Assembly: GCA_024404675.1 (NCBI GenBank) | Contig: JAKSPO010000001.1 | Coordinates: 248,001 to 312,000 of the forward strand | Length of the DNA: 64,000 nucleotides | DNA from: Lachnospiraceae bacterium | GTDB lineage: Bacteria; Bacillota; Clostridia; Lachnospirales; Lachnospiraceae | Direction: 5' to 3' | Shown here: positions 33,113 through 58,310 of the stretch, piece after piece | Layout: every line of letters begins with the position of its first letter | Numbering within the stretch: position 1 is the stretch's first letter | The notes under the pieces: model-generated | Database searches by the model: none | Told to the model about the DNA's origin: nothing | What the model saw: only the letters and a program-made list of their open reading frames with translations | Program-made: the position numbers and the translations under genes

Positions 33113-33424
33113 ATGTACGCAATTATTGCAACCGGCGGTAAGCAGTACAAGGTAGCTGAAGGCGATATCATTAAAGTAGAGAAGCTTGGCGTAGCTGAGG
33201 GTGAGAGCTTTACTTTCGATCAGGTTCTCGCTGTTAACAATGACAGTGAGCTCGTTGTCGGAACACCGTGTGTTGCCGGCGCAACCGTATCTGCAACTGT
33301 TCTTGGTGAAGGAAAGGCTAAGAAGGTTATCGTTTACAGATACAAGAGAAAGTCTGGATATCATAAGAAGAACGGACACAGACAGATCTTCACTCAGGTT
33401 AAGATTGATTCCATCAACGCTTAA
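33113..33424 (+). CDS. rplU: 50S ribosomal protein L21
   Basis: 103 residues. YAIIATGGKQYKV at the N-terminus and KKVIVYRYKRKSGYHKKNGHRQ near the C-terminus are the family signatures. ATG 33113 follows AGGAGGTG; an in-frame ATG 21 bases upstream would place that site inside the gene. First gene of the L21-Prp-L27 ribosomal unit. Confidence 0.97.
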   Translation: MYAIIATGGKQYKVAEGDIIKVEKLGVAEGESFTFDQVLAVNNDSELVVGTPCVAGATVSATVLGEGKAKKVIVYRYKRKSGYHKKNGHRQIFTQVKIDSINA

Positions 33425-33426
33425 TT

Positions 33427-33744
33427 ATGATTAAGGTTTCTGTTGAAAAGAAGAAGGACGACATTGTTGCATTTTCCTGTAAAGGACATGCAGGTTATGC
33501 CGAGGAAGGGCAGGATATTATCTGTTCTGCTGTTTCTGCATTAATCATCAATGCGGTGAATTCCGTAGAAAAGCTTGCCGGATTGCGTTACGAAAGTAAG
33601 GATTGTTCCGGAAATCTGACTTTTCGTTTACTGGATGCGCCAAGTCCCGAATCGAATTTGTTATTGCAGTCTATGATTATCGGATTGCAGAGTATTGAGG
33701 CGGATTGTCCTAAATACTTAAAGGTTACGATTGTAGAGAGTTAA
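33427..33744 (+). CDS. prp: Ribosomal-processing cysteine protease Prp
   Basis: 105 residues. Catalytic dyad H21 (CKGHAGYAEEG) and C33 (DIICSAVS) as in characterised Prp. The enzyme removes the N-terminal extension of L27 before or during 50S assembly. It lies 2 bp after rplU and just before rpmA, the standard order, and its substrate is visibly present in the next gene. Confidence 0.95.
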   Translation: MIKVSVEKKKDDIVAFSCKGHAGYAEEGQDIICSAVSALIINAVNSVEKLAGLRYESKDCSGNLTFRLLDAPSPESNLLLQSMIIGLQSIEADCPKYLKVTIVES

Positions 33745-33770
33745 ACCACTTTTTAGGAGGTAAATGAATT

Positions 33771-34055
33771 ATGTTGAAGATGAACCTTCAGTTATTCGCT
33801 CATAAAAAGGGTGTTGGTTCCACTAAGAACGGTAGAGATTCCGAGTCCAAGAGACTTGGTGCCAAGAGAGCAGACGGTCAGTTTGTTAAGGCAGGCAACA
33901 TTATCTTCAGACAGCGTGGTACCAAGATTCATCCCGGCGTTAATGTAGGTATTGGCGGAGATGATACCCTGTTCGCATTGGTAGAAGGAACTTTGAAGTT
34001 CGAGACCAAGGCAGGCGGCAAGAAGCAGGCAAGTGTTTATCCTGTTGCTGAATAA
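33771..34055 (+). CDS. rpmA: 50S ribosomal protein L27 with cleavable N-terminal extension
   Basis: 94 residues. The first ten residues ([10 protein letters not shown]) are the Prp-cleaved extension; the mature protein would start at H11 ([14 protein letters not shown]), whose tail reaches the peptidyl-transferase centre. The Firmicutes consensus usually has FFA and then S or H at the site, so LFA/H fits. Ribosome site AGGAGGT. Confidence 0.97.
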
Positions 34056-34068
34056 GTAGCTTTTTCGG

Positions 34069-34102
34069 AAAGCCCTGGTAACAATATTACCAGGGCTTTT
34101 TT
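34069..34102 (+). terminator. Terminator after rpmA
   Basis: AAAGCCCTGGTAA/TTACCAGGGCTTTT with a 5-nt loop and a T run. Strong. Confidence 0.95.
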
Positions 34103-34105
34103 CAC

Positions 34106-34134
34106 TTTATAAGATTGCTTTTTTGTGCTATAAT
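34106..34134 (+). promoter_or_regulatory. Extended -10 promoter of obg
   Basis: TGCTATAAT (extended -10) with a poor -35 (TTTATA) 17 bp upstream. Confidence 0.55.
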
Positions 34135-34191
34135 AGATAGAGAATCTGTCAAAATGAAGCTTTCTTATATTATTTTATTACGGAGATTATT

Positions 34192-35478
34192 ATGTTTGCG
34201 GATGTAGCAACAATTTATATTCGTTCCGGCAACGGCGGCGATGGCCATATTGGTTTCCATCGTGAGAAATTTATTGCAGCCGGCGGTCCGAACGGTGGTG
34301 ACGGTGGTCGCGGCGGAGACGTGATCTTTATGATCGATGACGGTATGAATACCCTTAACGACTATCGTTATAAAAGAAAATACAAGGCCGAGAACGGCGA
34401 ACCCGGCGGCAACAACAACTGTTCCGGAAAGGATGGCGAGGATCTGATTCTTCGCGTACCGGAAGGAACTGTCATAAAGGAAGCCGAATCCGGCAAGGTT
34501 ATCGCCGATCTGTCTCATGACAATCGAAGAGTCACCGTGCTGCACGGCGGTCGCGGCGGTAAAGGCAATCAGCATTATGCTACTCCGACAATGCAGATCC
34601 CCAGATATGCGCAGCCCGGCCAGGAGGGACGTGAGCTTACCGTAGTTCTTGAGCTGAAGGTGATTGCCGATGTCGGTCTGGTCGGCTTCCCGAATGTCGG
34701 AAAGTCTACCTTTTTGTCACGTGTCAGCAATGCGAAGCCGAAGATTGCAAATTATCACTTTACAACCTTAAACCCGAATCTTGGCGTTGTAAACTTAGAG
34801 GGAACTGACGGCTTTGTTATCGCAGATATCCCCGGACTTATCGAAGGTGCATCCGAAGGTGTTGGTCTTGGGCATGAGTTTTTGAAGCATGTCGAGCGCT
34901 GCAAGGTGATTATTCATATTGTGGACGGTGCGTCCACGGAGGGAAGAGATCCGGTTGACGATATCAACAAGATCAATACCGAGCTTGCCAAATACAGCGA
35001 GGTTCTTGCCGGAAAGCCGCAGATTATTGCAGCGAACAAGATGGATCTGTTCAGCGAAGAGGAGCAGGAGATTGCGCTTTCTCTCATAAAGGACGGCTTG
35101 CCTGAGGGCACTGAGGTACATATGATATCTGCCGTAAGCGGTCAGGGTATTCGTGAGCTTTTGTATGCAGCTTATCATATGCTCAAGTCTGTGAAAGAAG
35201 ATCCGATCGTATTCGAGCAGGAGTACTTCCCCGAGACGATCAGCGGAGGCGACGAGCCATATACCGTTACCTACGATATGGAAACCAGCATGTATGTTGT
35301 GGAAGGTCCGAGAATCGAGCGTATGCTTGGTTATACGAACCTTGATTCCGAGAAGGGTTTTGAGTTCTTCCAGAATTTCTTAAAAACAACAGGTATACTT
35401 ACCGAATTAGAAGCACTCGGCATTCAGGACGGCGATACCGTTCGTATGTATGGTCTTCAGTTTGATTATTATAAATAA
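34192..35478 (+). CDS. obgE: GTPase Obg/CgtA
   Basis: Essential large-subunit-assembly and stress GTPase. 428 residues in three parts: glycine-rich Obg fold (1-158; GGNGGDGHIGFHREK), G domain with P loop GFPNVGKST (about 165-173), switch DIPGLIEGA and NKMD, and a C-terminal OCT domain (about 350-428). All motifs intact. It heads obg-yhbY-nadD-yqeK-rsfS. Confidence 0.97.
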   Translation: MFADVATIYIRSGNGGDGHIGFHREKFIAAGGPNGGDGGRGGDVIFMIDDGMNTLNDYRYKRKYKAENGEPGGNNNCSGKDGEDLILRVPEGTVIKEAESGKVIADLSHDNRRVTVLHGGRGGKGNQHYATPTMQIPRYAQPGQEGRELTVVLELKVIADVGLVGFPNVGKSTFLSRVSNAKPKIANYHFTTLNPNLGVVNLEGTDGFVIADIPGLIEGASEGVGLGHEFLKHVERCKVIIHIVDGASTEGRDPVDDINKINTELAKYSEVLAGKPQIIAANKMDLFSEEEQEIALSLIKDGLPEGTEVHMISAVSGQGIRELLYAAYHMLKSVKEDPIVFEQEYFPETISGGDEPYTVTYDMETSMYVVEGPRIERMLGYTNLDSEKGFEFFQNFLKTTGILTELEALGIQDGDTVRMYGLQFDYYK

Positions 35479-40885: not shown

Positions 40886-41605
40886 CTAATTTCGTCTGTG
40901 CCATTCCTTGAGTGTTCCGTCCGAGACCGCATTGAATAAACGTTCCCGCACGCCCGGCGTTTTGTTGTTTATTTCCTTGATCAATTCAGTAGCATATTCC
41001 CTTGTTGTATTTCCGTCTGCGCTGCAAGGATTTTTGAATACCGGAAGAGCATATTTATTCTTAAAGCCTACAATATCAGCTTCGTTCACATATATTAACG
41101 GTCTGATTAAGGAAAGACCGGTTCTGTCCCAGACCGTAACCGGTGCAAAGGTATGAAACCTTCCTTCGTAAATCAACGACATCATCATTGTTTCAACGAC
41201 ATCATCTTTATGATGTGCATATGCAATTTTATTACAGTTTAATCTGATGGCTTCCTCGTTCAAGGCACCTTTTCTAAGCTTAGCACAAAGAGAGCATGGG
41301 TGCTTTTCCTTTCTTTCCTCGAAGATAATCTGCTTTATATTCGTATTCACAACATAAAAAGGAACCTGCAGACTTTCACACAAATCACGAATCCTCGTAT
41401 AGTAGGTATGAAATCCCAGATCAACCGATATCGCAGTCAGTTCAAAGTTCACCGGATAGAACCTTTTTAATTCTGAAAGTGCATACAGCAAGGTGAGACT
41501 GTCCTTACCGCCGGATATGCCAATTGCAATTCTGTCTCCCTCGGAAATCATCTGATAATCATCGATTGCTTTTCTTGTTAAACTTAATAGCTTCTGTAAT
41601 TTCAT
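40886..41605 (-). CDS. ttcA: TtcA-family tRNA thiolation ATPase
   Basis: 239 residues, PP-loop enzyme. SGGKDS at 31-36, a CSLC pair (HPCSLCAKLRKGAL), a third cysteine in NPCSADG and the AHHKDDVVET motif are typical of TtcA, which makes 2-thiocytidine at tRNA position 32 with an Fe-S cluster. The frame is open upstream to 41686, but the promoter -10 lies inside that part, so ATG 41605 is the first usable start. It has only AGG directly before it; a strong AGGAGG further upstream faces no start codon. Confidence 0.85.
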   Translation of the reverse strand: MKLQKLLSLTRKAIDDYQMISEGDRIAIGISGGKDSLTLLYALSELKRFYPVNFELTAISVDLGFHTYYTRIRDLCESLQVPFYVVNTNIKQIIFEERKEKHPCSLCAKLRKGALNEEAIRLNCNKIAYAHHKDDVVETMMMSLIYEGRFHTFAPVTVWDRTGLSLIRPLIYVNEADIVGFKNKYALPVFKNPCSADGNTTREYATELIKEINNKTPGVRERLFNAVSDGTLKEWHRRN

Positions 41606-41671
41606 CCTGGTTTCTGAATCATAAGAGTGTGTCTTTGATTCTGTATCCTCCTGTGTATAATTACTCTTTAC

Positions 41672-41699
41672 AGTATAGCAGAACACATTTTATATGCAA
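41672..41699 (-). promoter_or_regulatory. Promoter of ttcA
   Basis: TTGCAT, 16 bp, TATACT on the minus strand. Confidence 0.6.
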
Positions 41700-43856: not shown

Positions 43857-46331
43857 ATGAAGACTAAGGCAGAAAACAAACAATTGAATCTGCGTGACAC
43901 CTATATACAGCAGACCGGTCTGGTGCTTTCCGACATGAATTATATGTCTCTTTCAAAGCGCGATAAGTTGATCGTATGCCTTGTAAAGGCTGTCCTTATC
44001 TTTTCTGTAACGATGGGACTCAATCTGCTTGTTATTACAAGCTTCGAGCTTCCGTGCAGCATCGTCGTTATCACTGCGTTTGCGGCACTTCTTTCATTTG
44101 CCTTATCACTTTTATATATCAGAAGACTGTATTTTAACATCGGTTATATTGGTTTGTTACTTCTGTTCATTGGCATGGCCTATGCACTTCTCAGATACGC
44201 CAACAGTGGTATGAACGCCATTGTGAATATTATTATGGAGGCTGTTGACCGTAAGCTGAATCTCGGCGGTGTGAGAGTATACCAGGAGTTATATACCAAT
44301 CGATTCGTTTCCATAACCAGCTGTCTACTGTTGATTATGTTTCTTGAAGTATGCTTTTTGAATTCTCTGATATCGGAATATATGTCAGGATGCGGCGTAT
44401 TTCTTGTGATCTATCCTCTGTTCCAGCTTTGTATCTATCTCGACGATACTGTGAATTTTTTCTGTCTTGCCATGATATTCATTCCGATCGTCTGCTGTAT
44501 GATACTAAAGCGTTCAAGGCGTTTTCGTCTATCTCTGAATAAGCAGGAACTTGGTTACCATTTTACCAAAAACAAGATTGCCTTTAACGGTCGTTCCTTC
44601 AAAAAGACCAATGTCATCATGTCCGTATTCAGTGGAATTGTTGCTGCAGTCGTTCTGATCCTTTCAATCCTTTTTGCTAAAGCTATGCCTTTCTCCTTAA
44701 GAAGCGGTCACAGCGCGTGGAAGGATATGACCGATCAGGATGTTGCTGAATTTGCTATGAACGGCTTTTCGGGTTACTTTAACAGCTATTATGCTACCGG
44801 TGGTATCAGTGGTGGTAAGCTTGGCGGTGTGAGAGAGGTAACACTTGATTTTCAGACCGACCTGATCGTTCGATATGTTCCCTATGCGAATGAATCTCTT
44901 TACCTGAAGGCTTTTGTTGCCGGTACCTATAATAAGAATCAATGGATACGCGTAAAGGATTTCGACGGGCTGTTTCGCCAACCGTACTATTTTTCACCGG
45001 AAAGTGATCGTCTGGTGAATATCGAGAGCAATTACTTACTCTCGCTACTTAATAGCGGTGTAGGTGATACAGCAACTGCTCAGATGACGATTACCAATAT
45101 CGATGCTGACAGAAAGTATTATTATTACCCTTATTATACGAATCTTAACAGTGCTGAGATTTCTATGCGAGGCGGTGAGCCTCGTTCCATCACGGGCGAT
45201 ATTGTTACCGGTAAGATGCCTTCCTCGAACCGATACACCTTGACCTTCCAGCCTTTACTCAATAAAACGCTTGCTTATCAGGCGAATATCAGAGAGGATG
45301 ATACCGAACTATACAGGGATTTTGTTTATAACCATTATCTCGATGTTCCAACCAACTTACAGAATCTTTTAAATACCATCTGTGTCGAGCAGAATTTCCA
45401 CGGAAATACGATGGAGATTGTCAATCAGATTCGAAACTATTTCTTTAAAAACTATACCTATACACTTTCTCCCGGTAAGACACCTGCCAATCGTGATTTC
45501 ATCACATATTTTCTTACCAGACAGAAGAAGGGATATTGCGCGCATTTTGCCTCCGCAGGTGCCATGCTGTTACGTCAGATGGGCATCCCTACGCGTTATG
45601 TAGAGGGCTATTGTGTAGATATGGGTACCGTTGCTGATTCCGATGCGGTCTTAGACGAAGACTGGGAAGATTGGTACGAGGGAGATTATATTCTTGACAG
45701 CAAGGGTAATCAGATATATGTCGTAGAGGTTGAAGTAAACGATTCAAAGGCACACTGCTGGGTTGAAGTATATATAGACGGATTTGGATGGATGCCGGTA
45801 GAACTGACAACCGGCAGGCAGGAGAATACCGCAGAGAATGCTGACTTCTGGGCTAACTTCCGTAATCTGTTCGGTAACGACGAGGATAATGAATCACCGC
45901 TTCAGAATCTTACCAATCAGCTAAGAGGTCTTGGAAACGGAATCATGATAGTAATCGCTATAGCAGCCGGAATTCTTGTTATCATTCTTCTGTTGCTTAG
46001 ATTTATTAGCTCTTATCGAATATATTATTTGAATAACAACAGAAGATTAATCAATCAATATGTTTTACTTAACAAGTTACTGAATCGTTATCAGTTGACC
46101 GAAGCCGGCAATGTATATCACAAAAAAGCCGCGGAGATTGCTGTTTCTTACGGAATCAGCGAGCAGCTTTCATATGATTATATTCATGCAGTAGAAAAGG
46201 CCAGCTTCAGTAATGAAAAGCTGACCCATGAATCATTAAATCAGGCAACAACAGTATTCCGTATGTACCTTAAGGAAATACGTAGGAGAGTACCGTTCCT
46301 GTCAAAAATTAAGCTTTTGATCAAATACTAG
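43857..46331 (+). CDS. Transglutaminase-like membrane protein (TgpA type)
   Basis: 824 residues. About six N-terminal transmembrane helices (about 38-265), a large extracytoplasmic part with the transglutaminase-like core (C561 in KKGYCAHFASAGAML, H633 in KAHCWVEVY, and GWMPVELTTG where many members have Asp), a further helix near 700 and a cytosolic tail. Probably a protease- or transglutaminase-type enzyme acting at the surface. Third gene of the MoxR operon. Its stop codon shares CTAG with the convergent recombinase gene. Confidence 0.92.
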   Translation: MKTKAENKQLNLRDTYIQQTGLVLSDMNYMSLSKRDKLIVCLVKAVLIFSVTMGLNLLVITSFELPCSIVVITAFAALLSFALSLLYIRRLYFNIGYIGLLLLFIGMAYALLRYANSGMNAIVNIIMEAVDRKLNLGGVRVYQELYTNRFVSITSCLLLIMFLEVCFLNSLISEYMSGCGVFLVIYPLFQLCIYLDDTVNFFCLAMIFIPIVCCMILKRSRRFRLSLNKQELGYHFTKNKIAFNGRSFKKTNVIMSVFSGIVAAVVLILSILFAKAMPFSLRSGHSAWKDMTDQDVAEFAMNGFSGYFNSYYATGGISGGKLGGVREVTLDFQTDLIVRYVPYANESLYLKAFVAGTYNKNQWIRVKDFDGLFRQPYYFSPESDRLVNIESNYLLSLLNSGVGDTATAQMTITNIDADRKYYYYPYYTNLNSAEISMRGGEPRSITGDIVTGKMPSSNRYTLTFQPLLNKTLAYQANIREDDTELYRDFVYNHYLDVPTNLQNLLNTICVEQNFHGNTMEIVNQIRNYFFKNYTYTLSPGKTPANRDFITYFLTRQKKGYCAHFASAGAMLLRQMGIPTRYVEGYCVDMGTVADSDAVLDEDWEDWYEGDYILDSKGNQIYVVEVEVNDSKAHCWVEVYIDGFGWMPVELTTGRQENTAENADFWANFRNLFGNDEDNESPLQNLTNQLRGLGNGIMIVIAIAAGILVIILLLLRFISSYRIYYLNNNRRLINQYVLLNKLLNRYQLTEAGNVYHKKAAEIAVSYGISEQLSYDYIHAVEKASFSNEKLTHESLNQATTVFRMYLKEIRRRVPFLSKIKLLIKY

Positions 46332-47380
46332 TCCTTTCTTAAATGAACCTTATCGCGAGCAGATCTGCGTCGTTCATCCTCTAAGGCCGCATAATGCTTT
46401 CTGGTGGTATTTACATCCTTATGGCCAAGTACATCGGCCACCAGATAAATATCGCCTGTTTCGCGATATAAAGCGGTACCGTAGGTACTTCTAAGCTTAT
46501 GGGGCGTAATATGCTTTAAGGGAATGCATTTCTGCGCATATTTCTTAACAAGATTCTCAGCTGCACGAACAGTCAGACGACGCATCTGGCCGGATAGAAA
46601 CAAGGCATCTTCATGGCCTTCTTTGGTTTCCTGCGACTTACGAATCTCAAGATAATTAAGCAGAGCTTCGCGAACCTCATCACCAAAATATACAAAAGCC
46701 TCATAGCCGCCTTTTCGAACAACCTTCATACGATCATTATCGAAATCCAGGTCTTTTATGTCTAATCCAATACATTCCGAAATTCGAACACCTGTTCCAA
46801 GCAGTAATGTAAGTAATGCGAGGTCTCTAAGCTTATTCCTTTGAAAAAAGGCATTCTGACGACTTGTACCATAATATTCATGTTCCACACAATCTAACAA
46901 TGCAGCGGTTTCGTTCGGTTCCAGGCGAATAATTGCCTTTTCATGAAGCTTAGGAATTGCCACCTGAATCGCAGGATTATTCTCAACAGAATGATTCTTA
47001 TACAGATAATTATAGAATGATCGTAAGGAACTGATTTTGCGCTTGATACCGCGTTCATTGTTCGTAATCACGGAATCATCCTTACGATATACCTTGAGAT
47101 AATCCAAATATTCCTCAATATCATAGGATTGTAATTCCGACAGAATTGATAAAGGAATGTCACGAATCGGTTTCCCTTTTAATGTAGGATTCGTTGCTGC
47201 AAGATATTCAAAGAAAACCTTCAAATCAATCGCATAAGCAATTCTTGTTCGTGATGCAGTAACTTGTTCAATACCACGAAAATACGTTCCACAATACGGA
47301 GGAAGTTCCATACGAAGTTCACGCAAGCGAATCTCGTTATCGATATTATTTTGTTCAGAATAGGACTTGTTGTCAGCCAT
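46328..47380 (-). CDS. xerS: XerS-like single tyrosine recombinase
   Basis: 350 residues, about 50 longer than XerC/XerD. Catalytic set complete: R199 (GTGVRIS), K223 (VRKGG), H294 and R297 (HKLRSTYG), H320 (LGHKDVN) and Y330. The long N-terminal core-binding region (LPPYCGTYFRGIEQ, IPLSILSELQSYDIEEYLDYLK) resembles the XerS family that resolves chromosome dimers alone in streptococci/lactococci. ATG 47380 lies after GAGG. Its stop overlaps the convergent transglutaminase gene's stop. A generic integrase is less likely because no element genes surround it. Confidence 0.82.
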   Translation of the reverse strand: MADNKSYSEQNNIDNEIRLRELRMELPPYCGTYFRGIEQVTASRTRIAYAIDLKVFFEYLAATNPTLKGKPIRDIPLSILSELQSYDIEEYLDYLKVYRKDDSVITNNERGIKRKISSLRSFYNYLYKNHSVENNPAIQVAIPKLHEKAIIRLEPNETAALLDCVEHEYYGTSRQNAFFQRNKLRDLALLTLLLGTGVRISECIGLDIKDLDFDNDRMKVVRKGGYEAFVYFGDEVREALLNYLEIRKSQETKEGHEDALFLSGQMRRLTVRAAENLVKKYAQKCIPLKHITPHKLRSTYGTALYRETGDIYLVADVLGHKDVNTTRKHYAALEDERRRSARDKVHLRKD

Positions 47381-47432
47381 ATCAAAAAACCTCAAAGAAA
47401 AAGAATCCGGCACATTATAGGGCCTTAATGGA

Positions 47433-47461
47433 ATTATAGCACTATTCCGGCTTAAAATCAA
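47433..47461 (-). promoter_or_regulatory. Promoter of the xerS-like gene
   Basis: TTGATT, 17 bp, TATAAT with extended TGC on the minus strand. Confidence 0.75.
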
Positions 47462-47462
47462 C

Positions 47463-47500
47463 ATATTTCTTCGTTAAACCTGTGTTTAGCGAAGAAATAT
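47463..47500. repeat. 38-bp near-perfect palindrome next to the xerS-like promoter (candidate dif site)
   Basis: ATATTTCTTCGTTAAAC and GTTTAGCGAAGAAATAT pair over 17 bp with one mismatch, separated by CTGT. It begins 1 bp outside the -35 box. There is no T tract and the upstream gene already has a terminator. In streptococci the recombination site of XerS lies beside its gene. Confidence 0.8.
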
Positions 47501-47527
47501 ATTGACAAGTTCACTGCGCTACCCCTT

Positions 47528-48153: not shown

Positions 48154-49413
48154 TCAAAATTGTGTTAGCTCAAGAAAATAATACTGTATGTTGTGGTCGG
48201 CATTTTTCGGTTGATTTTTCTTATCTGTCGGGTTCAAAAAATAACGATTCTTTAACCCCTTCACAATATCCGAAGCATTATTAGTCGCATCGATTATATC
48301 CTTTGCTCGATAGGTAATGATGCAATTCTTGCCGATATATGGAATGTAACGATTTCGTCCCCACCTGAGTGCTTCTACCCTATCAGCCTGATTCGAAACA
48401 ACATGATACAGGTAATTCTGATAGATATATTCAGGAAGCTCTTCCCCGGCATCCATCTTTAAAAAGCAGTCATAATCCGAAAGGATATACCGAAGCATTC
48501 CGCAATCAGCAGGTTCAAATCTATAGAGGTTATCCGAGACATTGATTCGGGTAAATATACGATTATCTGAAAGATATTGCAGTGTCGCCTGATACTCCTT
48601 CAGCTGCGCGCCTCTTCGAATATGTCCGGGATGAAAGGCTCCTCGATTCTCTGTTCCATACTTCTTAATATACGAAAGAAGCTGCATAATTTGGGTATAA
48701 CTGACTCCCTCCGGCATATCCTTTGTATAGCGTAATACCGTTGTGGAATACAGATATTCCTGGATTCGGTAAAGCTCGGAAATATCTGTACGGTTCGCGA
48801 TATACTGCCTGATTGCCTCCGGATAGCCACCTACCAGTAGATAATCGTGGAACAGCTCTCGCACCTCATCGTCAATCATATCCGGCAAATCATGCTTACT
48901 TTCATATTGTGTTTTTAAGATTTCAGCGTAATTCTCCCCTTCAATCGAAGAAACCGCCTCTAAAAACTCATAAAACGAAAATGTAGGCACGAACAAGTTT
49001 TGTACAATATTCTTACCACAAGAGTCATTAAGCTTCAAATAATCGATTCTGGAGGTTGTTACAGCCAATCGATACGGTAAGTCCCCCGAAAGCATCACAG
49101 AAGCCTTCTCGTAAAGTACCTCGACACTGTCAAGGATCAGATAAAGCTTATTTCTAACCGCCGATTCGTCCATTAAAAAGAACTCGGACAAATAAGCCAC
49201 CAGTCCGCTACCATCGGAAAGCGCCTTCATAAGGCCGGTTCGAAACTCAATATCGGTATTCAAATCACAGATAATGTAGCTACGAATTCCTTCATTTTCA
49301 CAAAAACTACGTAGAAGATACGATTTGCCGACGCCGGGCGGGCCATACAGAACAAGCGGCGCTTCCGACTTACTCATACACTGCTTGATTGTATGCTCTA
49401 ATGTACGCTTCAT
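48154..49413 (-). CDS. AAA-family ATPase of the DUF4143 type
   Basis: 419 residues. Walker A GPPGVGKS (24-31); Walker B-like LYLILDSVEVL; FSFYEFLEAV; DYLLVGGYPEAIRQY, a segment typical of AAA_14/DUF4143 ATPases. The C-terminal half should carry the nuclease-like DUF4143 fold. Such proteins are widespread in anaerobes with no settled role. Its ATG overlaps the rluD stop by 4 bp, an unusual coupling with a translation gene. Confidence 0.85.
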   Translation of the reverse strand: MKRTLEHTIKQCMSKSEAPLVLYGPPGVGKSYLLRSFCENEGIRSYIICDLNTDIEFRTGLMKALSDGSGLVAYLSEFFLMDESAVRNKLYLILDSVEVLYEKASVMLSGDLPYRLAVTTSRIDYLKLNDSCGKNIVQNLFVPTFSFYEFLEAVSSIEGENYAEILKTQYESKHDLPDMIDDEVRELFHDYLLVGGYPEAIRQYIANRTDISELYRIQEYLYSTTVLRYTKDMPEGVSYTQIMQLLSYIKKYGTENRGAFHPGHIRRGAQLKEYQATLQYLSDNRIFTRINVSDNLYRFEPADCGMLRYILSDYDCFLKMDAGEELPEYIYQNYLYHVVSNQADRVEALRWGRNRYIPYIGKNCIITYRAKDIIDATNNASDIVKGLKNRYFLNPTDKKNQPKNADHNIQYYFLELTQF

Positions 49414-50354: not shown

Positions 50355-50378
50355 GACGAGTCATTATTTTGACTCGTC
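50355..50378 (-). terminator. Hairpin overlapping the lspA stop codon
   Basis: GACGAGTCA/TGACTCGTC with a 6-nt loop that contains the lspA stop. On the minus strand it is followed by TTCTTTAT. Probably a partial terminator between lspA and rluD. Confidence 0.6.
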
Positions 50379-50909
50379 CTTCGTGTTGTCTTTCTTGTCT
50401 GTGCCAAAGAATGGCAGGAAACTAAGCTCATCATCGGTATGATAAAAGCATACCAGATAAAGCAGTACAAAAATCGCTACTGTCACATAAATGTCAGCAA
50501 CATTGAATATCGGAAAATTAATCAGTTCAAAATATATAAAATCCGTAACGAAGCCGAACACAATTCGATCAATCAGATTACCAATCGCACCTGCTACAAT
50601 GAAAAGCATCACAAAATACATTGCGACATATCTTCTGCCCCTCGGGATTCTTACCATCAGGTAGATAAACAGAATAAGAATGCCGATGGAAATGATTGAA
50701 AGGAGGTCGTATTTACCTTGAAACAAGCCCCATACGGCGCCACGATTCTCCAGATATTGAAAGCAAAGAACCCCGGGAATCAGTTCAACCTTCTTCGGTG
50801 GATTGACAAGGCTCTGACGAACCAGATGCTTTGTAACCTGATCAAGAATCACAAGAACAATCGGCAGAAACAATAAATATATTTTATAATTATTCTTTAT
50901 CTGCTTCAT
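50364..50909 (-). CDS. lspA: Signal peptidase II
   Basis: Prolipoprotein signal peptidase, which cleaves lipobox peptides such as those of the lipoproteins elsewhere in this window. 181 residues, four transmembrane helices. Conserved LENRGAVWG, GNLIDRI (D114), VTDFIYF (D123) and FNVADIYV (D139); D123 and D139 correspond to the catalytic pair. Acidic/lysine C-terminal tail. Starts inside the end of divIVA. Confidence 0.95.
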   Translation of the reverse strand: MKQIKNNYKIYLLFLPIVLVILDQVTKHLVRQSLVNPPKKVELIPGVLCFQYLENRGAVWGLFQGKYDLLSIISIGILILFIYLMVRIPRGRRYVAMYFVMLFIVAGAIGNLIDRIVFGFVTDFIYFELINFPIFNVADIYVTVAIFVLLYLVCFYHTDDELSFLPFFGTDKKDNTKDESK

Positions 50910-51408
50910 CCTTGTTCACGCTCTGAAGATATTCCGTATATGCCTCAAATTCCTTCATGTTAATCTGAAAAACCTTACTCTCAAGAAGCTCCTTCTGCGA
51001 CTCGATGAGCCCCATGCACTGGGAACGGTAGCTTTCATACTGCTGCATAAGCTTCAAGGTCTGTGTATGCAGATCCTGCAGCTGCTTCTCTGCGTTGTTG
51101 CGAATCATCTGTGCATCCGCAAGTGCCTGCTTGTGAATCCCCTTCGCATCCTTCTCTGCAGCAAGCTTGGTCTCCTCAGCAGACTTCTCTGCAAGCACCA
51201 AAGCCTTATGCAAGGACTTCTCAATCGTCAAATAATACTGCACACGGTCATTCAATGTACTGACCTTGTCCGTAAGCTCAAGATTCTGACGGTACAATAC
51301 CTCATAATCCTTGTTGAGCTGTTCCATAAAGCTGTCAACCTGACCCTTGCTGTAACCGCTTGCAGAGGTCTTAAACTTCGTATTCTGAATTTCTACCGGT
51401 GTCAGCAT
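50890..51408 (-). CDS. divIVA: DivIVA-domain protein
   Basis: 172 residues. N-terminal lipid-binding domain (LTPVEIQNTKFKTSASGYSKGQVDSFM) then a long coiled coil. Localises to negatively curved membrane at septum and poles and organises division or growth machinery. Follows sepF by about 12 bp and overlaps lspA by 20 bp. Confidence 0.94.
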   Translation of the reverse strand: MLTPVEIQNTKFKTSASGYSKGQVDSFMEQLNKDYEVLYRQNLELTDKVSTLNDRVQYYLTIEKSLHKALVLAEKSAEETKLAAEKDAKGIHKQALADAQMIRNNAEKQLQDLHTQTLKLMQQYESYRSQCMGLIESQKELLESKVFQINMKEFEAYTEYLQSVNKDEADKE

Positions 51409-51420
51409 AATATTCTCCCC

Positions 51421-52230
51421 TTATCTTCTGTTGAATGTCGGTACACCCATGCTCTCCTGATTCATCAAGGAGTTGAAATCGCCTGTAACCTCAATGTCAC
51501 GAGGCGTAAGAAGAAATACAAGATTGGAAACCTGTCTCCATTCTGCATTGATTGTATAAACACAGCCGCATACAAAGTCCATCACACGCTGCGTGTTCTG
51601 TGCATCAAAGCCCTCGAAATTGATGATGATCGGATTACCGCTAATCAGAATATCACAGATCTCGCTGGCATCCTCAAAGCTCTTCGGCTTAATAAAGGTA
51701 ACGCCAAGAGCATCCCGGGTAGTCGGCTGTGCAACAGGAGCCGGTGCAGTATATGCAGGCTGGCGATAGGTATTCTGCTGAACCACAGGTTCCTCGTTCG
51801 GTACCGTCTGAAGACGAGGATTCTGCTGACGGTACTGCTGTGCTTCCTTTGCCTTATAACGCTGCTCAAAGGTTGTAGTACCCTTCGAATAACCGCTTCT
51901 TCTCTCCTGGATAGAAACTGTGTTGTTATCATAAAGAGGTGTACGATTATTTGCGGAAGGTCTCTGGGCCTTCGGTGCCTCACTTGCTACCTCATAAGGC
52001 TCGTTGTCATAATACTCATCCTCCACAGGCTGCTGCTTCGGTGCCTTCTTACGAGACAAAGCCTCCTTAAACGAGAACTTCGGCTCAGCATCACGCTGTG
52101 CCTTCTTCTCCTTCTTCAGACGCTCCTTCTCCTCCTCAGCGGCAAGATAATCGTCATAATCGTCGTAATCGTCAAAGTCACTGTCATCATTCAGCTTCAA
52201 GGATTCAATAATGTTCTTAAAAAAACCCAT
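51421..52230 (-). CDS. sepF: Cell division protein SepF
   Basis: 269 residues, longer than the usual ~150 because of a charged, Gln/Arg-rich linker. N-terminal amphipathic membrane-binding helix (MGFFKNIIESLKL), acidic Asp/Tyr stretch, linker (about 60-165), then the SepF fold (about 170-260; VTFIKPKSFEDASEICDILISGNPIIINFEGFD). Links FtsZ filaments to the membrane. Between yggS and divIVA as in other Firmicutes. Confidence 0.95.
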   Translation of the reverse strand: MGFFKNIIESLKLNDDSDFDDYDDYDDYLAAEEEKERLKKEKKAQRDAEPKFSFKEALSRKKAPKQQPVEDEYYDNEPYEVASEAPKAQRPSANNRTPLYDNNTVSIQERRSGYSKGTTTFEQRYKAKEAQQYRQQNPRLQTVPNEEPVVQQNTYRQPAYTAPAPVAQPTTRDALGVTFIKPKSFEDASEICDILISGNPIIINFEGFDAQNTQRVMDFVCGCVYTINAEWRQVSNLVFLLTPRDIEVTGDFNSLMNQESMGVPTFNRR

Positions 52231-52245
52231 CGGTGTGCTCCCCTT

Positions 52246-52941
52246 TTAAATAGTATAATCTCTATGTCCGAAAATATAAGTTCCGACGCGTACATGGGTT
52301 GCGCCTTCTTCCACGGCAACACCATAATCTCCGCTCATACCCATCGATAATACATCAACATTAATATTATCAATGTTTTTCGCATTTATGTCAACCAGAA
52401 AATTCTTGAGCGCACGAAAATGAACTCTGTTATCCTCTGCATTCTCCACAAACGGCGCAACAGTCATAAATCCGCGAAGTCTTACGTGGGTAAGCTTGGC
52501 AATCTCCCGTACGATATCCTCTGCTGACGCTAATGTGATACCAAACTTACTTTCCTCGCCGGCAACATTGATCTCAAGAAGAATATCCTGAACCTTTCCA
52601 AGCTGCGCAGCGTGTCTGTCAATATCTTTTGCAAGCGCAATCGAATCAACCGAATGAATCATCGTACTGACCGAAACCGCTTTCTTCGCTTTATTAGACT
52701 GCAAATGCCCAATCAGATGCCAGCGAAGCGGCATATCGGAAGCTAAGCTATGCTTTTCACACATCTCCTGGACCTTATTCTCACCAAAGTCAATCTGTCC
52801 GCCCTCTGCCGCTTCAAGAACCATACTAAGAGGCTTCGTCTTGCTGACCGCAATCAGCGTGACCTCGGAAGGATCACGACCGACACGCTCGCAATGAAGT
52901 CTGATCTGTTCCCTGACTTCGGCGATTCTTTCATTGATCAT
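52246..52941 (-). CDS. yggS: YggS-family PLP homeostasis protein
   Basis: 231 residues, alanine racemase-like barrel only. PLP lysine K34 in IAVSKTKP, FGENKVQE, WHLIGHLQSNKAK, and the C-terminal SMGMSGDY and VRVGTYIFG. Buffers pyridoxal phosphate; no catalytic reaction known. Upstream of sepF as usual. Confidence 0.95.
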   Translation of the reverse strand: MINERIAEVREQIRLHCERVGRDPSEVTLIAVSKTKPLSMVLEAAEGGQIDFGENKVQEMCEKHSLASDMPLRWHLIGHLQSNKAKKAVSVSTMIHSVDSIALAKDIDRHAAQLGKVQDILLEINVAGEESKFGITLASAEDIVREIAKLTHVRLRGFMTVAPFVENAEDNRVHFRALKNFLVDINAKNIDNINVDVLSMGMSGDYGVAVEEGATHVRVGTYIFGHRDYTI

Positions 52942-52965
52942 ACCCTATACCTCGTGATACCAAAA

Positions 52966-54531
52966 TTAATAAATCGTTTGAGACTCCTCGATTGTGGAAG
53001 AATCCTCCGCAATATGGTCATGCTCGGAGATACTGTAACTCATACCGTTTTTCACAACGCAGAACTCGGTACCTTCCTGCATCATATCCACTCTTCTGAA
53101 CTGTGCAAAGCCTTTATTGACACAATAAACGCCGGTCAGCTTACCGACGAGCGAAATCTGGAAGGTTTCCTGGGATTTTTCGTCATAAATGAAGGTGCCG
53201 TAGGTAATGGACTTCATATCAATATAATTGTACTGCTCGTCCTCGTAATAAATCTCAGTCGGAAGGAAATCATAATACTTCTTCTTCGTTTCCTCATCAT
53301 GACGAAGGATGCAGACACCGTACTGCTTATTGTCGCCGCCTCTTGTGAAATATTCCTTCGGAACCATATAGAATTCCTTCTCCACAAGTGAGGACTTCGG
53401 AATCTTAAGACCGGTCTGGTGGTCCATATCGAGTGCAATCGTCAGAAATCTTTTGTTCAGATAACGAACCATGTACTGATTCAACGTAATACGGGCAAAA
53501 TACCCTTCTCCGACATGCATAAACATAACCGGCGAAGTAAGACGAAGATTATCCTCTTCGATCGTATAGGTAAGCGTATTCTGCGAGCTAAGCTTGTTAT
53601 ACTGCTCCTCGGTAAGATTCAGAACAAGATCCCAGTTCTCATCCGCAAGAAGCTTATAAATTACGCTTCCCTGCTCCTTCAGGTTCGAATCAAAAAGATT
53701 CATGCTCTTATACCCGGAGTGATCAAAGGTATCAAGAGTAACCTGGTCAGCCGTAAGTCCGTCAAGCGTATCATAAAAATATGATATAAGGCCGGGCGCA
53801 TCGGATTTGTGAACCGTCAAAGCACCGGAATAATCCTTGTCAATCAGAATCTGATTCAGATTCTCCAAAAGGTACATATCGGAGATACTGTTCTCCATCG
53901 TAGTAAGGTCATCACGAAGCGTATATACCATCGAAAAATCATTATGTGAATAGTCCCGGTTAAAGCTGCCGATACAATCCTTAATTTGGGAGATATCCTC
54001 CTCGGAAAGTGTATAATTGAAATCATTACCGGATATCAGGTTATAAATCTGACGGCTTTCATCGATGGAATAAATGGTCTCGCCCTTTGCTACTCTCGTG
54101 CCGCTTCGCATATAATAATTGACATAGCCGGCAATCCCTGTCTTCACAGGAATCTCATTACGAACGATTACCGCCTCCGCCTTCGTATTCGACGCAAGCG
54201 CAAGCTGCTGCACCTCATAGATAGAAAGATGCGAACGATTGAAGTAAATGATAATATTGATGAAAATATAAACACAAAACAGTCCGAAGATGATCGTGCC
54301 GATATTCAGCTTCGATACAGCGGTACTTCTTCTCGGAACACGTTTCGTTACAGGTCTTTCTACACGATTGCTGCGTACGACCGGTTTATTATGTGCTTCC
54401 GCAGAAGCCGGTCTGTTAGCAGCAGTTTTTTCGGAAGATTCGACACTGCTTCTACGAACCGATGCCGGTCTTACAGACGGATTGCCGCCGGTTCTTTGGG
54501 GCTTTCTTCCGGTTTCTTTCGTAGGCTCCAT
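52966..54531 (-). CDS. HlyD-like membrane protein linked to the division cluster
   Basis: 521 residues. Basic, Arg/Ser/Pro-rich cytosolic N-terminus (about 75 residues, disordered), one transmembrane helix (about 76-96), then an extracytoplasmic region beginning like a biotin/lipoyl-like membrane-fusion domain (AEAVIVRNEIPVKTGIAGYVNYYMRSGTRVAKGETIYSI) and a long tail. HlyD-type adaptors normally partner ABC or MFS exporters, but no exporter is near; 24 bp to yggS suggests a role in envelope or division. Confidence 0.8.
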   Translation of the reverse strand: MEPTKETGRKPQRTGGNPSVRPASVRRSSVESSEKTAANRPASAEAHNKPVVRSNRVERPVTKRVPRRSTAVSKLNIGTIIFGLFCVYIFINIIIYFNRSHLSIYEVQQLALASNTKAEAVIVRNEIPVKTGIAGYVNYYMRSGTRVAKGETIYSIDESRQIYNLISGNDFNYTLSEEDISQIKDCIGSFNRDYSHNDFSMVYTLRDDLTTMENSISDMYLLENLNQILIDKDYSGALTVHKSDAPGLISYFYDTLDGLTADQVTLDTFDHSGYKSMNLFDSNLKEQGSVIYKLLADENWDLVLNLTEEQYNKLSSQNTLTYTIEEDNLRLTSPVMFMHVGEGYFARITLNQYMVRYLNKRFLTIALDMDHQTGLKIPKSSLVEKEFYMVPKEYFTRGGDNKQYGVCILRHDEETKKKYYDFLPTEIYYEDEQYNYIDMKSITYGTFIYDEKSQETFQISLVGKLTGVYCVNKGFAQFRRVDMMQEGTEFCVVKNGMSYSISEHDHIAEDSSTIEESQTIY

Positions 54532-54571
54532 ATCAAATCCTCCTTTCTAAAGTCATACTCTATAAAATTAT

Positions 54572-54600
54572 ACTATACTTGTAGAAAAAATGGAAGTCAA
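54572..54600 (-). promoter_or_regulatory. Promoter of the HlyD/yggS/sepF/divIVA/lspA operon
   Basis: TTGACT, 17 bp, TATAGT on the minus strand. Confidence 0.7.
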
Positions 54601-54678
54601 AAAAACGAATTCCGGTAAAATTCTTTCATTTTTCACAAATAATACCTATGCTCCCGGCCGTCATTTATCTACATTCCA

Positions 54679-54720
54679 AAGTGACTGAAAGAAACAAATC
54701 CTAAGTGTCCTGAAGAAACA
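54679..54720. repeat. Imperfect 18-bp direct repeat
   Basis: AAGTGACTGAAAGAAACA and AAGTGTCCTGAAGAAACA, 24 bp apart start to start, in a 260-bp non-coding gap with nothing else of note. Meaning unknown. Confidence 0.35.
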
Positions 54721-54741
54721 CCTCCATAATCCTACAAATCG

Positions 54742-54769
54742 AAAAAAGGACCTGTCAATAGACAGGTCC
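54742..54769 (-). terminator. Terminator of the small P-loop gene
   Basis: GGACCTGTC/GACAGGTCC with a 4-nt loop; six T after the stem on the minus strand. Confidence 0.92.
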
Positions 54770-54791
54770 CTAAACATACCATACGCTCAAA

Positions 54792-55211
54792 TTACAGTGC
54801 TACGATAACCTTAGACTTAACCAGCTCGGAAAGCGTCTCGGAATTAGCGGAAAGGCTGATAATAATATCAACATTAAACTTAGTAGAAATCATATCAAGC
54901 TTCTCGATAACACGATCGATATCATCGGCGTTCATGCAAGCGATTTTCAAAAAGCTGTCAAGGTATATCTTCTCAAGATCGTGATCCTGTGAAACAAGAC
55001 CGCAAATAAATCCAACAAATTCAGATGCACACTCTACGCAATAATCGTTTACATTAATCAAACGAATCTTGTTGCTGAGCTCGTACATATGCTTATTGCT
55101 CTTGTCCAAATATACGATGGTACCCTTGGATGTTGCGACATCGGCATTCACCTTATCAAGCAAAATCTTCGTCTTTCCTTTACCCTTTTCACCGGCAATA
55201 ATCTGTACCAT
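54792..55211 (-). CDS. Small P-loop protein of unknown function
   Basis: 139 residues. Walker A GEKGKGKT (about 7-14) right at the N-terminus, IVYLDK as a possible second strand, and VDIIISLSAN near the C-terminus with no acidic Walker B residue. No membrane segment. Own promoter and terminator, so monocistronic. Stands between the division operon and the cell-shape operon. I do not recognise a characterised family; it may be a regulatory or signalling ATPase. Confidence 0.8.
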   Translation of the reverse strand: MVQIIAGEKGKGKTKILLDKVNADVATSKGTIVYLDKSNKHMYELSNKIRLINVNDYCVECASEFVGFICGLVSQDHDLEKIYLDSFLKIACMNADDIDRVIEKLDMISTKFNVDIIISLSANSETLSELVKSKVIVAL

Positions 55212-55249
55212 TGTTTTGTCCTCCTTAAAAAGATTTTTAAGATAGCTTT

Positions 55250-55278
55250 ATTATATTACAGCGAGGGAAAAATAACAA
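55250..55278 (-). promoter_or_regulatory. Promoter of the small P-loop gene
   Basis: TTGTTA, 17 bp, TATAAT on the minus strand. Confidence 0.7.
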
Positions 55279-55297
55279 CTGCATTTGTTGTTTTTTG
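55266..55297 (-). terminator. Terminator of the cell-shape operon
   Basis: AACAAC/GTTGTT with a 7-nt loop, then ATTTTT on the minus strand. It overlaps the -35 region of the next promoter. Confidence 0.45.
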
Positions 55298-55313
55298 AAG
55301 AAAAATAAACTAG

Positions 55314-56333
55314 CTACTCTCCTACGCAGTAAGTTGACATTAAATCATTCAATTTCTCGTATAATTTTGCTTCTGTCTCTGCTCGATATACACCGATGAT
55401 GTATTCCGTACCAAGAGAATTCCTGATATGCATAAGCATGCAATAGCCTGCATACGTTGTCGTTCCCGTCTTACCACCGAGAATTACGATGCCATTCGGA
55501 TACGGGTAAGACTTCGATGCATTGTTAAGCTTGAAGCAGTTCGTCGTAACAACCTCTCTCGAACGCTGCGCACCGTTAGCATCGGTATAATTATACTTAG
55601 CCTTGGTAATCTTCATAATATCACGAAAATCGGCATAGGTCATGCATTCCTGATAGACGATATACATATCATATGGCGTTGTCTTATGCTTATCGTCATG
55701 AAGACCGCTCGCGTTCATAAACTTCGTTGTGGTGCCGCCAAGCTTTGTCATCTCGCCGTTCATCATCTTCACGAAATCCTGCTCGCTTCCCGCAACATGC
55801 TGCGCAAGGGCAAATGCAGCGTTATTCGCAGAGCTAATCAGCATACACATCAATAGGTCATGTACCGTCAGCACATCGCCCTCTTCCAGATCAACGACGG
55901 AGCCACGCTTCATCGCAGCAATTTCCTTCGTAATAACTACCTTATCATCGGGCTTTGTATGACGCATTACAACAAGTGCCGTCATCAGCTTCGTAATACT
56001 TGCCGGGAAGAACAGCTCATCCATCCTAGAACCGAACACTAACTTATTCTCGGTTCGATTGATGACAAATGCGCATCCCTTTCGGTCAGGCTGCGCTTCA
56101 TCAAAAACATAATCCTTTGAAAGCATCTCCGGCTCGATATTGCAGACAAAAAACTGCGTCAGAAGCGGCGCATAGCTTGCCTCAGCCATAGCACCGACAT
56201 CCTGCTGCACTACACTGTCCTTCGCCCGGTAGTTTCCCAGAAGATCCGCATCCTTCTCCTTACAGCCGACAAGCGAACATAAAAAGGTGGCCATAAGAGA
56301 AAGAGCAATCAATTTTCGCAACATTTTCCTCAC
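55314..56333 (-). CDS. dacA: D-alanyl-D-alanine carboxypeptidase (S11 family)
   Basis: 339 residues. Signal peptide ending in LVGC, so probably a lipoprotein rather than the usual C-terminal-anchored form. Serine-peptidase triad motifs: SxxK in PASITKLM, SxN in ISSANNA and KTG in GGKTGTT. Trims pentapeptide side chains of peptidoglycan. GTG start is 9 bases after AAAGGA and overlaps the rodA stop; ATG 56324 is an alternative. Last gene of the cell-shape operon. Confidence 0.92.
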   Translation of the reverse strand: MRKMLRKLIALSLMATFLCSLVGCKEKDADLLGNYRAKDSVVQQDVGAMAEASYAPLLTQFFVCNIEPEMLSKDYVFDEAQPDRKGCAFVINRTENKLVFGSRMDELFFPASITKLMTALVVMRHTKPDDKVVITKEIAAMKRGSVVDLEEGDVLTVHDLLMCMLISSANNAAFALAQHVAGSEQDFVKMMNGEMTKLGGTTTKFMNASGLHDDKHKTTPYDMYIVYQECMTYADFRDIMKITKAKYNYTDANGAQRSREVVTTNCFKLNNASKSYPYPNGIVILGGKTGTTTYAGYCMLMHIRNSLGTEYIIGVYRAETEAKLYEKLNDLMSTYCVGE

Positions 56334-57553
56334 TTCAGATCATCCTTTAACAAAACTTTTAGATCCATATCGTATTTTTCCTTCTCCAGGGCTGTATTCT
56401 TGTCCTGAAGACCAACATTTAATAGGACACCGATTGTCATCATATTCGTTAACAAAGAGCTTAGTCCGGAGCTCATAAAGGGAAGCGGAATACCGGTATT
56501 CGGAAGAAGGGAAACCACAACGCCGATATTAACGATTGTCTGCAGGCAGATTGCAACAGATATTCCGGAAGCAATCAGGTAGCCAAGGCGGTCTCTTGCA
56601 TTCATCGCAATACGAAAACCGATGAAGGTAAGCAGGAAGAAGAAACCTACAACAACCAGACAGCCAAAGAAGCCGAACTCTTCGGCAACACTGCAGAAGA
56701 TAAAGTCGGACTCTACTACCGGTACGTAGTTCGTCAGCCGGAACGAATCGTCTCCGATGATCATCTTACCGAACATACCGCCGGATTCGATTGCCGCAGC
56801 CGCATTGTTCTGCTGATACATCAGGTCCGGATAACGCTCCGGATGCAGAATCGAAAGAATACGCGGTTGCTGCCAAACCGGATCAAGAAGCTTCTGAAAC
56901 GGCTGCTGAATATACCAGAACAGAAAGCTTACAAGCGGGATACCGACAAGTAGTCCCGGAACGATGATCTTATAGGAAAGACCACCGATATAAAGCATAA
57001 AAAGAAACGTAGCAATCAGCACAATACTTGTGGAAAAGTCCGGCTGGTCGAATACCAGGAAAATCGGGAACATACCGAACACAAGAATTCCGGCAAGATA
57101 CCAGAACCGGTTCATTCTCTCTCCGACACGCACCAGAATTGTTGCCACACATACAATCAATATAATTTTGGTAAGCTCGGACGGCATGAACTCAAAGCCT
57201 TGTCCCGCTCTACCACCGCCGCCGATCTTGATCCATCTTCTCGCCTGGAAATGCTGCCAGCCGTATACAAGCGGAAACATCGAATAGGTGACATATTTAC
57301 AGATCATCATCAGAACGATATTACCAAGGTATAAAAGGATATACAGCTTGGCAATGAAATGATAATCAATCAGCGATACGACGAACATAACGAAGAATCC
57401 GAATATCAGTCCGTACAGCTGTCTTTCAAACTGGTTCTCATCACTATCCTGCAGCTTCTGAATCAGCACCAGGCTGATCGTTCCAAGCAGGATGATGATG
57501 GAAACAATCGAGAACTTATAATTGTTAATATGATAATGTAGCTTACGAAACAT
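56330..57553 (-). CDS. rodA: RodA-type SEDS glycosyltransferase
   Basis: 407 residues, about ten transmembrane helices. SEDS signatures: FMPSELTKIILIV, ESDFIFCSVAEEFGFFG and GIPLPFMSSGLSS. Polymerises lipid II for elongation together with the class B PBP encoded upstream in the same operon. FtsW/SpoVE homologues look similar, but the mre/PBP2 context favours RodA. Confidence 0.93.
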   Translation of the reverse strand: MFRKLHYHINNYKFSIVSIIILLGTISLVLIQKLQDSDENQFERQLYGLIFGFFVMFVVSLIDYHFIAKLYILLYLGNIVLMMICKYVTYSMFPLVYGWQHFQARRWIKIGGGGRAGQGFEFMPSELTKIILIVCVATILVRVGERMNRFWYLAGILVFGMFPIFLVFDQPDFSTSIVLIATFLFMLYIGGLSYKIIVPGLLVGIPLVSFLFWYIQQPFQKLLDPVWQQPRILSILHPERYPDLMYQQNNAAAAIESGGMFGKMIIGDDSFRLTNYVPVVESDFIFCSVAEEFGFFGCLVVVGFFFLLTFIGFRIAMNARDRLGYLIASGISVAICLQTIVNIGVVVSLLPNTGIPLPFMSSGLSSLLTNMMTIGVLLNVGLQDKNTALEKEKYDMDLKVLLKDDLK

Positions 57554-57578
57554 ACTTAAGTCCCTTATCCCCCGACAA

Positions 57579-58298
57579 TCAGTCGATCAGTTCATATAAC
57601 TCCTCGTCTCCGCCGAAGGTATCATTCTCCACGGGACGAATCTTCACACTTTCGTCAACAATCTCTGCAATCATACTGCAGTTGTCAAGATGCTTCTTTC
57701 GAAGTGCCTTTGCTTCCTTCTTACGTTCCTTCTCGGTACCCGCCTCGAAGTCATATTCGTATTTGCCGATGGAAAGACGCTCCGGATGCATCTGTGCCGC
57801 AAAGACAAATGCCTCGCGGTTTGAGTTGGTTCCTGCTATCGCTGTACCAAAAAGACCGCCGATGACAATAATATTTCCGCCGCTTACAATCTCTGCACCG
57901 GCTTCAACATTACCAACGATAATGATGGAATTCTCGGTCTCAAGTCTACGTCCGGTACGAAGCACGCCCTGAAAGAACTGCGCCGTCTTCGTAGAAAGAC
58001 TTCCGATTACCTGATCCATCGACTGCTTTAACAGTGCTTCGTTCGTTTCGTTACCGTCAATCACGCAGATGATATCAAGCTCGGAATTCTCGGAAATAAC
58101 ACGAAGCACTTCCTTCTGCTCATCCGTTGAAAGCTCACGGCCTTCGAATTTCATAGACATATGCGCATTGCCAAGAAACTTCGCAGAGCTTTTGATGCGC
58201 TCCTCAAGACTAGAAAGGATCTCTTCAAAGCTTGCGTCCTTATTCAGAACAAGCATAATTCCATCCTTATAGCCCTTTAAAATAACATTATTATTCAT
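57579..58298 (-). CDS. minC: Septum-site-determining protein MinC
   Basis: 239 residues. N-terminal FtsZ-inhibiting domain (1-about 100) and C-terminal beta-helix (about 120-200; GVLRTGRRLETENSIIIVGNVEAGAEIVSGGNIIVIGGLFGTAIAG). MinC normally needs MinD for membrane targeting; here the next gene is rodA only 25 bp away and no minD or minE is in the window. Confidence 0.93.
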   Translation of the reverse strand: MNNNVILKGYKDGIMLVLNKDASFEEILSSLEERIKSSAKFLGNAHMSMKFEGRELSTDEQKEVLRVISENSELDIICVIDGNETNEALLKQSMDQVIGSLSTKTAQFFQGVLRTGRRLETENSIIIVGNVEAGAEIVSGGNIIVIGGLFGTAIAGTNSNREAFVFAAQMHPERLSIGKYEYDFEAGTEKERKKEAKALRKKHLDNCSMIAEIVDESVKIRPVENDTFGGDEELYELID

Positions 58299-58310
58299 GT
58301 ACTCTCCTGC

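Follow-up and report, generated by a model that had tools for sequence, protein, structure and literature searches.

The 64,000-nucleotide window analysed here (G000:C1:248001-312000, on a 677-kb contig of a 2.25-Mb Lachnospiraceae genome in 34 contigs) carries a gene for a Xer-type tyrosine recombinase, xer, with a palindromic dif-like site upstream of its start. Gene and site very probably make up a chromosome dimer resolution unit at the replication terminus that works with a single recombinase. By sequence, this reading is supported by the site and the gene themselves, the active-site residues, the terminus position and the single copy of the site, as well as by searches that found neither XerC/D nor a B. 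subtilis-type dif, by conservation in many genomes of the order Lachnospirales, and by a relative's phage that is bounded by the site. Most likely, the locus represents a new variant of the single-recombinase Xer systems, one that would be borrowed by some filamentous phages. Searches of an open-licence library listed no account of a Xer/dif system in Lachnospiraceae, with subscription papers and supplements outside that scope. The features of the locus are as follows.

46328..47380, minus strand: xer, XerS-related tyrosine recombinase, 350 aa from M29 (from ORF 46328-47464, orthologue alignment and profile scores)
47463..47500, minus strand: dif-like site, full palindrome 17+4+17, single copy and conserved, with flanking complementarity reaching 47458-47505
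47468..47495, minus strand: 28-bp core, with a 6-bp centre flanked on each side by an 11-bp half site (from the conservation profile of 75 pattern-picked sites)
47479-47484, minus strand: centre of the core, CACAGG on the minus strand, which would give the site its direction
46300..47500, no strand: replication-terminus switch point, where coding strand and GC skew change sign

The recombinase and its site

The open reading frame (ORF) at 46328-47464 on the minus strand encodes a tyrosine recombinase of 378 aa, with M29 as the likely start because the orthologues in an alignment of 26 begin there; this leaves a coding sequence of approximately 46328-47380 and a protein of 350 aa. Six residues (R199, K223, H294, R297, H320 and Y330) are invariant in all 26 aligned orthologues and correspond to the catalytic set of XerD. 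Both the catalytic R-K-H-R-H-Y set and the fold of a Xer tyrosine recombinase are present, and the protein groups with Xer proteins in sequence as well as in structure. Its named relatives are almost all from Lachnospiraceae. Among 41 genomes (the own genome and 40 relatives, 22 of them in the genus with the own genome included), a full-length xer orthologue is found in 37, the own genome among them, and is absent from G011, G020, G021 and G039, which are also without the site.

An earlier note on this DNA had called the protein XerS-like and proposed a XerS/dif unit. The likeness stands, but the assignment to XerS proper does not, as the whole protein scores 212.3 bits with the XerS profile NF003462, against an NCBI cut-off of 267. 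In the trees made, XerS is the closest clade, with the Lachnospirales protein placed outside it. Judged by profile and tree, the protein is a XerS-related sister lineage of XerS with a differently spaced site.

The XerS/difSL system of streptococci and lactococci (PMC5357621) has a number of features in common with the locus, namely one recombinase of about 350 aa and a site next to its gene. A single Xer without XerC/XerD is also what was found in the own genome, and a site beside the gene at the terminus is found in the window and the genus, but not in three genomes of another family. The differences lie in the site, which is a near-perfect palindrome with a 6-bp centre here and 31 bp with an 11-bp centre there, in the profile score below the XerS cut-off, and in the gene being far from the site in some genomes. 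That the locus is nonetheless a true streptococcal XerS/difSL member gained by transfer, with nothing specific to Lachnospirales, is rather improbable. The Lachnospirales orthologues do join XerS as its sister (support 98/95, with only four XerS rows in the tree), yet each side forms a clade of its own (100/99). Both difSL half sites, which lie 52 bp before xerS in locus L251, can be written TTCNNNAAA, an outline resembling that of the half sites here and noticed after the fact; however, the TTCNNNAAA arms enclose a centre of 6 bp here and of 8 bp in difSL by the same reading (published as 11).

The site itself lies at 47463-47500, where the palindrome of 17+4+17 described in the earlier note is real, with one mismatched pair, and can be extended to 22+4+22 at 91%. 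It scores 16, a value above that of all 40 dinucleotide shuffles of the window (none scored more than 13). Other inverted repeats in the window score alike, however, with 16 at about 37361 and 15 at about 25146, so that the palindrome alone is not decisive, and its meaning rests on conservation. The core can be read as two 11-bp half sites around 6 bp, TTCGNNAAA-6-TTTNNCGAA, a reading modelled on the dif geometry of E. coli and B. subtilis (PMC5357621). The end of the site is 82 bp upstream of the likely xer start codon. In the profile of 75 pattern-picked sites conservation ends sharply at about 34-36 bp, with at least one of the 75 wrongly picked (L058 at -1105, where a better site is found at -1299).

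Position at the replication terminus

Beyond 47.5 kb, all 14 minus-strand ORFs put to Pfam gave matches, one of them (48157-49413) only under cut-offs, versus none of the four plus-strand ORFs of at least 200 aa that overlap them. To the left of the site, long ORFs are mostly on the plus strand, the exceptions being 25176-28963 and 40886-41686. The switch in coding strand described in the earlier note is therefore borne out, as are the identities of rplU (33092) and rpmA (33771). The GC skew of the 677-kb contig agrees with it, being positive in 11 of 13 stretches to the left of the site and negative in six of six to the right. Within the window, the maximum-likelihood change point in skew is at 46300 and the site centre is at 47482, whereas the plain cumulative-skew maximum falls at 39061 and is nearly equalled at the site (1278 versus 1194). 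The offset of about 1.2 kb between change point and site can be explained by xer, which occupies the positive-skew side and is transcribed in the direction leading away from the site.

Because the own dnaA gene sits on another contig, the position opposite the origin could be measured in relatives only. Three single-contig genomes from another family, of which two share a genus, have the site at 0.509, 0.530 and 0.475 of the circle from dnaA, with xer 0.5-1.1 Mb away from it, and hence it is the site, and not the gene, that tracks the terminus. A skew switch like that of the own genome is evident in other genomes sampled at the site, with positive stretches to the left and negative stretches to the right in 11/11 and 9/9 for G137, 7/7 and 10/10 for G320, 5/5 and 4/4 for G280, and 4/5 and 5/5 for G256. 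In the case of Hungatella hathewayi, skew flips between 2.866 and 2.920 Mb and the site is at 2.873 Mb. On a smaller scale (1.5 kb on each side of sites matching at least 18 of 22 positions), the left skew exceeds the right in 43 of 45 loci, with plus and minus signs, respectively, in 31; the p-value for this comparison is nominal, as the organisms are related.

A mechanism can be proposed by analogy with XerS, XerH and XerCD. Two protomers of the one Xer protein would bind the 28-bp dif, one at the half site TTCGNNAAA and the other at its mirror image, with the asymmetric 6-bp centre setting the direction. Two such sites on a dimeric chromosome, the presumed physiological substrate, would meet at the septum, probably brought together and activated by FtsK, and strand exchange across the 6-bp centre, at cleavage positions predicted from the same analogy, would then release monomers. 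An FtsK with a gamma domain is present in nine of nine genomes tested, and is encoded 21 kb from the site in the own genome. A candidate KOPS-like motif was discarded, since the polar 7- and 8-mers are purine-rich and inseparable from coding bias.

Genes for division and cell shape (DivIVA, SepF, FtsW/RodA-type, MinC, PBP, MreC and MreB-type) are found at 50364-63674 of the window and, together with the ftsK gene (G000:C1:316832), are all about 22 kb or less from the terminus. On the other side, rplU, rpmA and obg (33092-35478) are about 12-14 kb away, and ribosomal protein genes so near a terminus are unusual.

Conservation, and the number of recombinases

At up to three mismatches, the core pattern is found in 27 of the 41 genomes, as one copy in 26, the own genome included, and as two in G007, whereas the control, the same pattern read backwards, is found in one. 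The site is kept in 19 of the 22 genomes of the genus, upstream of the xer start in every case; the remaining three, at 79-86% completeness, have no xer orthologue either. In a wider sample of 75 distinct xer loci from genome contigs (five repeated genus loci having been removed; L079 and L083 are from the same assembly), at least 20 of 22 site positions are present in 50, every one upstream of xer, and 16-18 in a further six. Across the order, 190 of 295 genomes have the gapped core, compared with approximately 63 of 295 for the backwards control, as counted by eye. At the phylum level TATTCGNNAAANNNNNNTTTNNCGAATA gave 0 matches in 398 genomes; it also missed the own genome and the five other members of the order in the sample, and says only that the strict form was not seen elsewhere.

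The regular spacing in the genus, where the core ends 37-189 bp before the start codon near M29 in all 19 site-bearing genomes, might suggest that the palindrome is an operator for the control of xer transcription, be it by the recombinase or by another regulator, with the terminus position incidental, and autoregulation of this kind could coexist with a dif function. As the sole function of the palindrome, though, such an operator is highly unlikely. Outside the genus the site can be as far as 4.8 kb upstream, separated from xer by other ORFs in the loci examined, and it remains at the terminus in the three single-contig genomes with a distant xer. Moreover, it is found on viral contigs, and 114 of the 120 viral stretches listed have no match to this protein.

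The own genome encodes one full-length Phage_integrase protein; a 63-aa frame on contig C2 is the only other match, and was rejected as a second Xer and taken as a fragment. The XerD family (TIGR02225) exceeds its cut-off in 5 of the 41 genomes and in none of the 22 of the genus, a cut-off that was itself reached in only 4 of 14 controls; for XerC no search with its own family was made, and the own genome is covered by the Phage_integrase search. XerCD/dif and CodV-RipX/dif resemble the present system in their 28-bp, 11+6+11 site at the terminus and their catalytic residues (PMC5357621), but have two recombinases where here there is one. The B. subtilis dif core was found at up to three mismatches in 0 of 19 genomes of the group, versus six of eight other Bacillota used as controls. 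Kono et al. 2011 (PMC3025954) predict a B. subtilis-like dif for 97 of 100 Firmicutes, and some Lachnospiraceae might be among them. The four outcomes that the earlier note had named as speaking against its proposal (a skew minimum elsewhere, several copies of the palindrome, another Xer pair with a classical dif, and absence of the palindrome from close relatives) were all examined, and none occurred.

A number of observations nevertheless weigh against a dimer resolution unit. With respect to conservation, 15 or fewer of the 22 positions are present in 19 of the 75 loci (some of these stretches are short), and the six loci at 16-18 are uncertain, since mononucleotide shuffles reached 16-17 positions in 5 of 80. 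Furthermore, the strict pattern finds no site in 10 of the 37 orthologue-bearing genomes, with looser scans giving candidates in several. With respect to skew, one of the five G256 stretches to the left of the site is negative, and local skew is reversed in two of the 45 loci, L054 and L095, the wider L054 profile being in agreement with the site. Lastly, one of the five genomes with a XerD-type protein above the cut-off belongs to the own family, and the genus member G015 has a XerD-type match of 235.8 bits, under the cut-off of 329.6, so that in these six genomes elimination does not decide which enzyme goes with the site. At 98.7% completeness of the own genome, an unassembled second Xer is possible.

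Immediately ahead of the start of the long-branch orthologue of L258 is a palindrome (1410-1437, gene orientation) that has diverged but keeps the 11+6+11 spacing, which suggests that protein and site changed together. XerD-type proteins of 300 aa are found in other genomes of the order (L133 and L134-L137), and that of L133 has a serine aligned at the position of the catalytic lysine in the one alignment made.

Phages, mobile elements and related Xer systems

The site is also found in viruses. Exact core patterns gave no matches in viral contigs, but the palindrome-only pattern is present in full in at least 120 viral stretches (L291-L410). The clearest case is the proviral contig L344, which has a full site at 8589, 745 bp upstream of a match to the xer orthologue (61% identity), and at 2361 a half site in which the left arm and centre are copied and the other arm is different; 29 bp are identical between 2352-2380 and 8580-8608. 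The interval between the two sites encodes a rolling-circle replication protein (PF23343) and also contains a match to Zot (PF05707) that is weak, with E 7e-4 and slightly below the cut-off. Such an arrangement, a Zot-type phage between a full and a half site, is the signature of Xer-dependent integration. Relatives of the L320 element, an element with a Zot protein above cut-off and the same site at its start, are encoded to the left of the half site, indicating two elements in apparent tandem. The IMEX phages TLC-phi and CTX-phi are similar in both respects, as these are Zot-type phages located at dif, where one arm and the centre match while the other arm diverges (PMC5357621), and also form what look like tandems. 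Unlike in the hosts of IMEX phages, both strand exchanges would here be carried out by the same protein, as the host has a single recombinase.

Tyrosine recombinases beside attachment sites are commonly integrases, and relatives do have mobile elements at this site. Even so, it is barely conceivable that a decayed mobile element left the recombinase as its integrase and the palindrome as its attachment site, given the full-length orthologues in 37 of 41 genomes, the grouping with Xer proteins, and the fact that the three viral contigs with xer (L339, L340 and L344) have no other match to the protein at E 1e-3, while three other viral loci (L326, L367 and L371) have recombinases that are 25-29% identical to it. 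Across xer, the site and a further 48 bp, L340 matches [Clostridium] symbiosum ATCC 14940 at 99.6% identity, and a Zot gene follows further on.

Viral sites are otherwise varied. Among the 120 viral loci listed, 15 have a 6-bp centre in common with a compared host site, two have a second half site, and 60 different centres are found. The palindrome is intergenic in 14 of 16 viral contigs examined, several of which are tailed phages; an assignment of the small contigs to Microviridae was dropped, since the 10 proteins tested gave terminase or portal Pfam matches (some weak). Among host loci, a second half site is present in 4 of 77, convincingly in L041 and L083, those in L068 and L095 being poor and not used.

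A broader proposal can be built on these patterns, and its four parts have about an even chance of holding jointly. Lachnospirales would use a separate Xer lineage that works with a single recombinase and has a palindromic dif code of its own; in some genera xer and the site would travel as a module, and in others they would be separate; the site would be a common target of filamentous phages and of tandem modules of 0.75-0.83 kb, maybe their satellites; and many tailed phages would have a dif-like site, variable in its 6-bp centre, at which they resolve or integrate their genomes via the host enzyme.

Most bacteria use two recombinases, and the single-enzyme systems described are XerS, XerH, XerL and archaeal XerA (PMC5357621, PMC9765430). 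XerH/difH of Helicobacter and Campylobacter shares the single recombinase and a strong structural match over 284-289 residues, a likeness on the protein alone, but from a different taxon and with only 22% identity over the aligned chain. XerL/dif of Legionellales, compared by description, is also from a different taxon; it resembles the present system in having one recombinase, inverted repeats that are long and uninterrupted, a place at the terminus, a mobile element at the site, and a gene that can be unlinked from it. According to PMC9765430, no orthologue of XerC, XerD, XerS or XerH had been identified by sequence in Legionella, whereas the Lachnospirales protein is readily recognised. The present locus would thus add a large gut order to those with single-enzyme chromosome dimer resolution. 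Its symmetrical site lends itself to the question of how a single enzyme achieves ordered strand exchange, and in some genomes site and gene have parted, with the site remaining at the terminus. The site would also serve as a phage integration target and terminus marker for gut Lachnospiraceae genomes.

Matches in annotated phages and plasmids are mostly at chance level. For phages there are 40 records, the best of which has E 4e-5 and is a human faecal phage; Escherichia phages account for 27, and those listed have E of about 10. For plasmids there are 19 records (best E 5e-3), seven of them from Pseudomonas. The weak plasmid matches include Butyrivibrio fibrisolvens (E 5e-3), B. proteoclasticus and Roseburia (E 0.7 each), and the Lactococcus cremoris plasmid pUC073A (L413 3001-3034, 34 bp, 85%, E 0.2), where the match is about 2 kb from an annotated xerS.

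The two host loci with convincing half sites contain modules bounded by a full site and half sites, two in tandem of about 820 bp in L083 (1205-2900) and one of about 750 bp in L041 (3819-4625), with only short ORFs of up to 130 and 172 aa, respectively. The ssNA-helicase RNA of Rfam (RF03070) was matched in each of the two L083 modules, and at threshold in none of L041, 10 further site loci or the window. In the case of G007, the second site copy (L278 8092; G007:C19:81091) is in mobile-looking DNA that encodes a 1775-aa SNF2-type helicase, a PIN protein and a DUF5688 protein, and is perhaps a plasmid or conjugative element that uses the host Xer.

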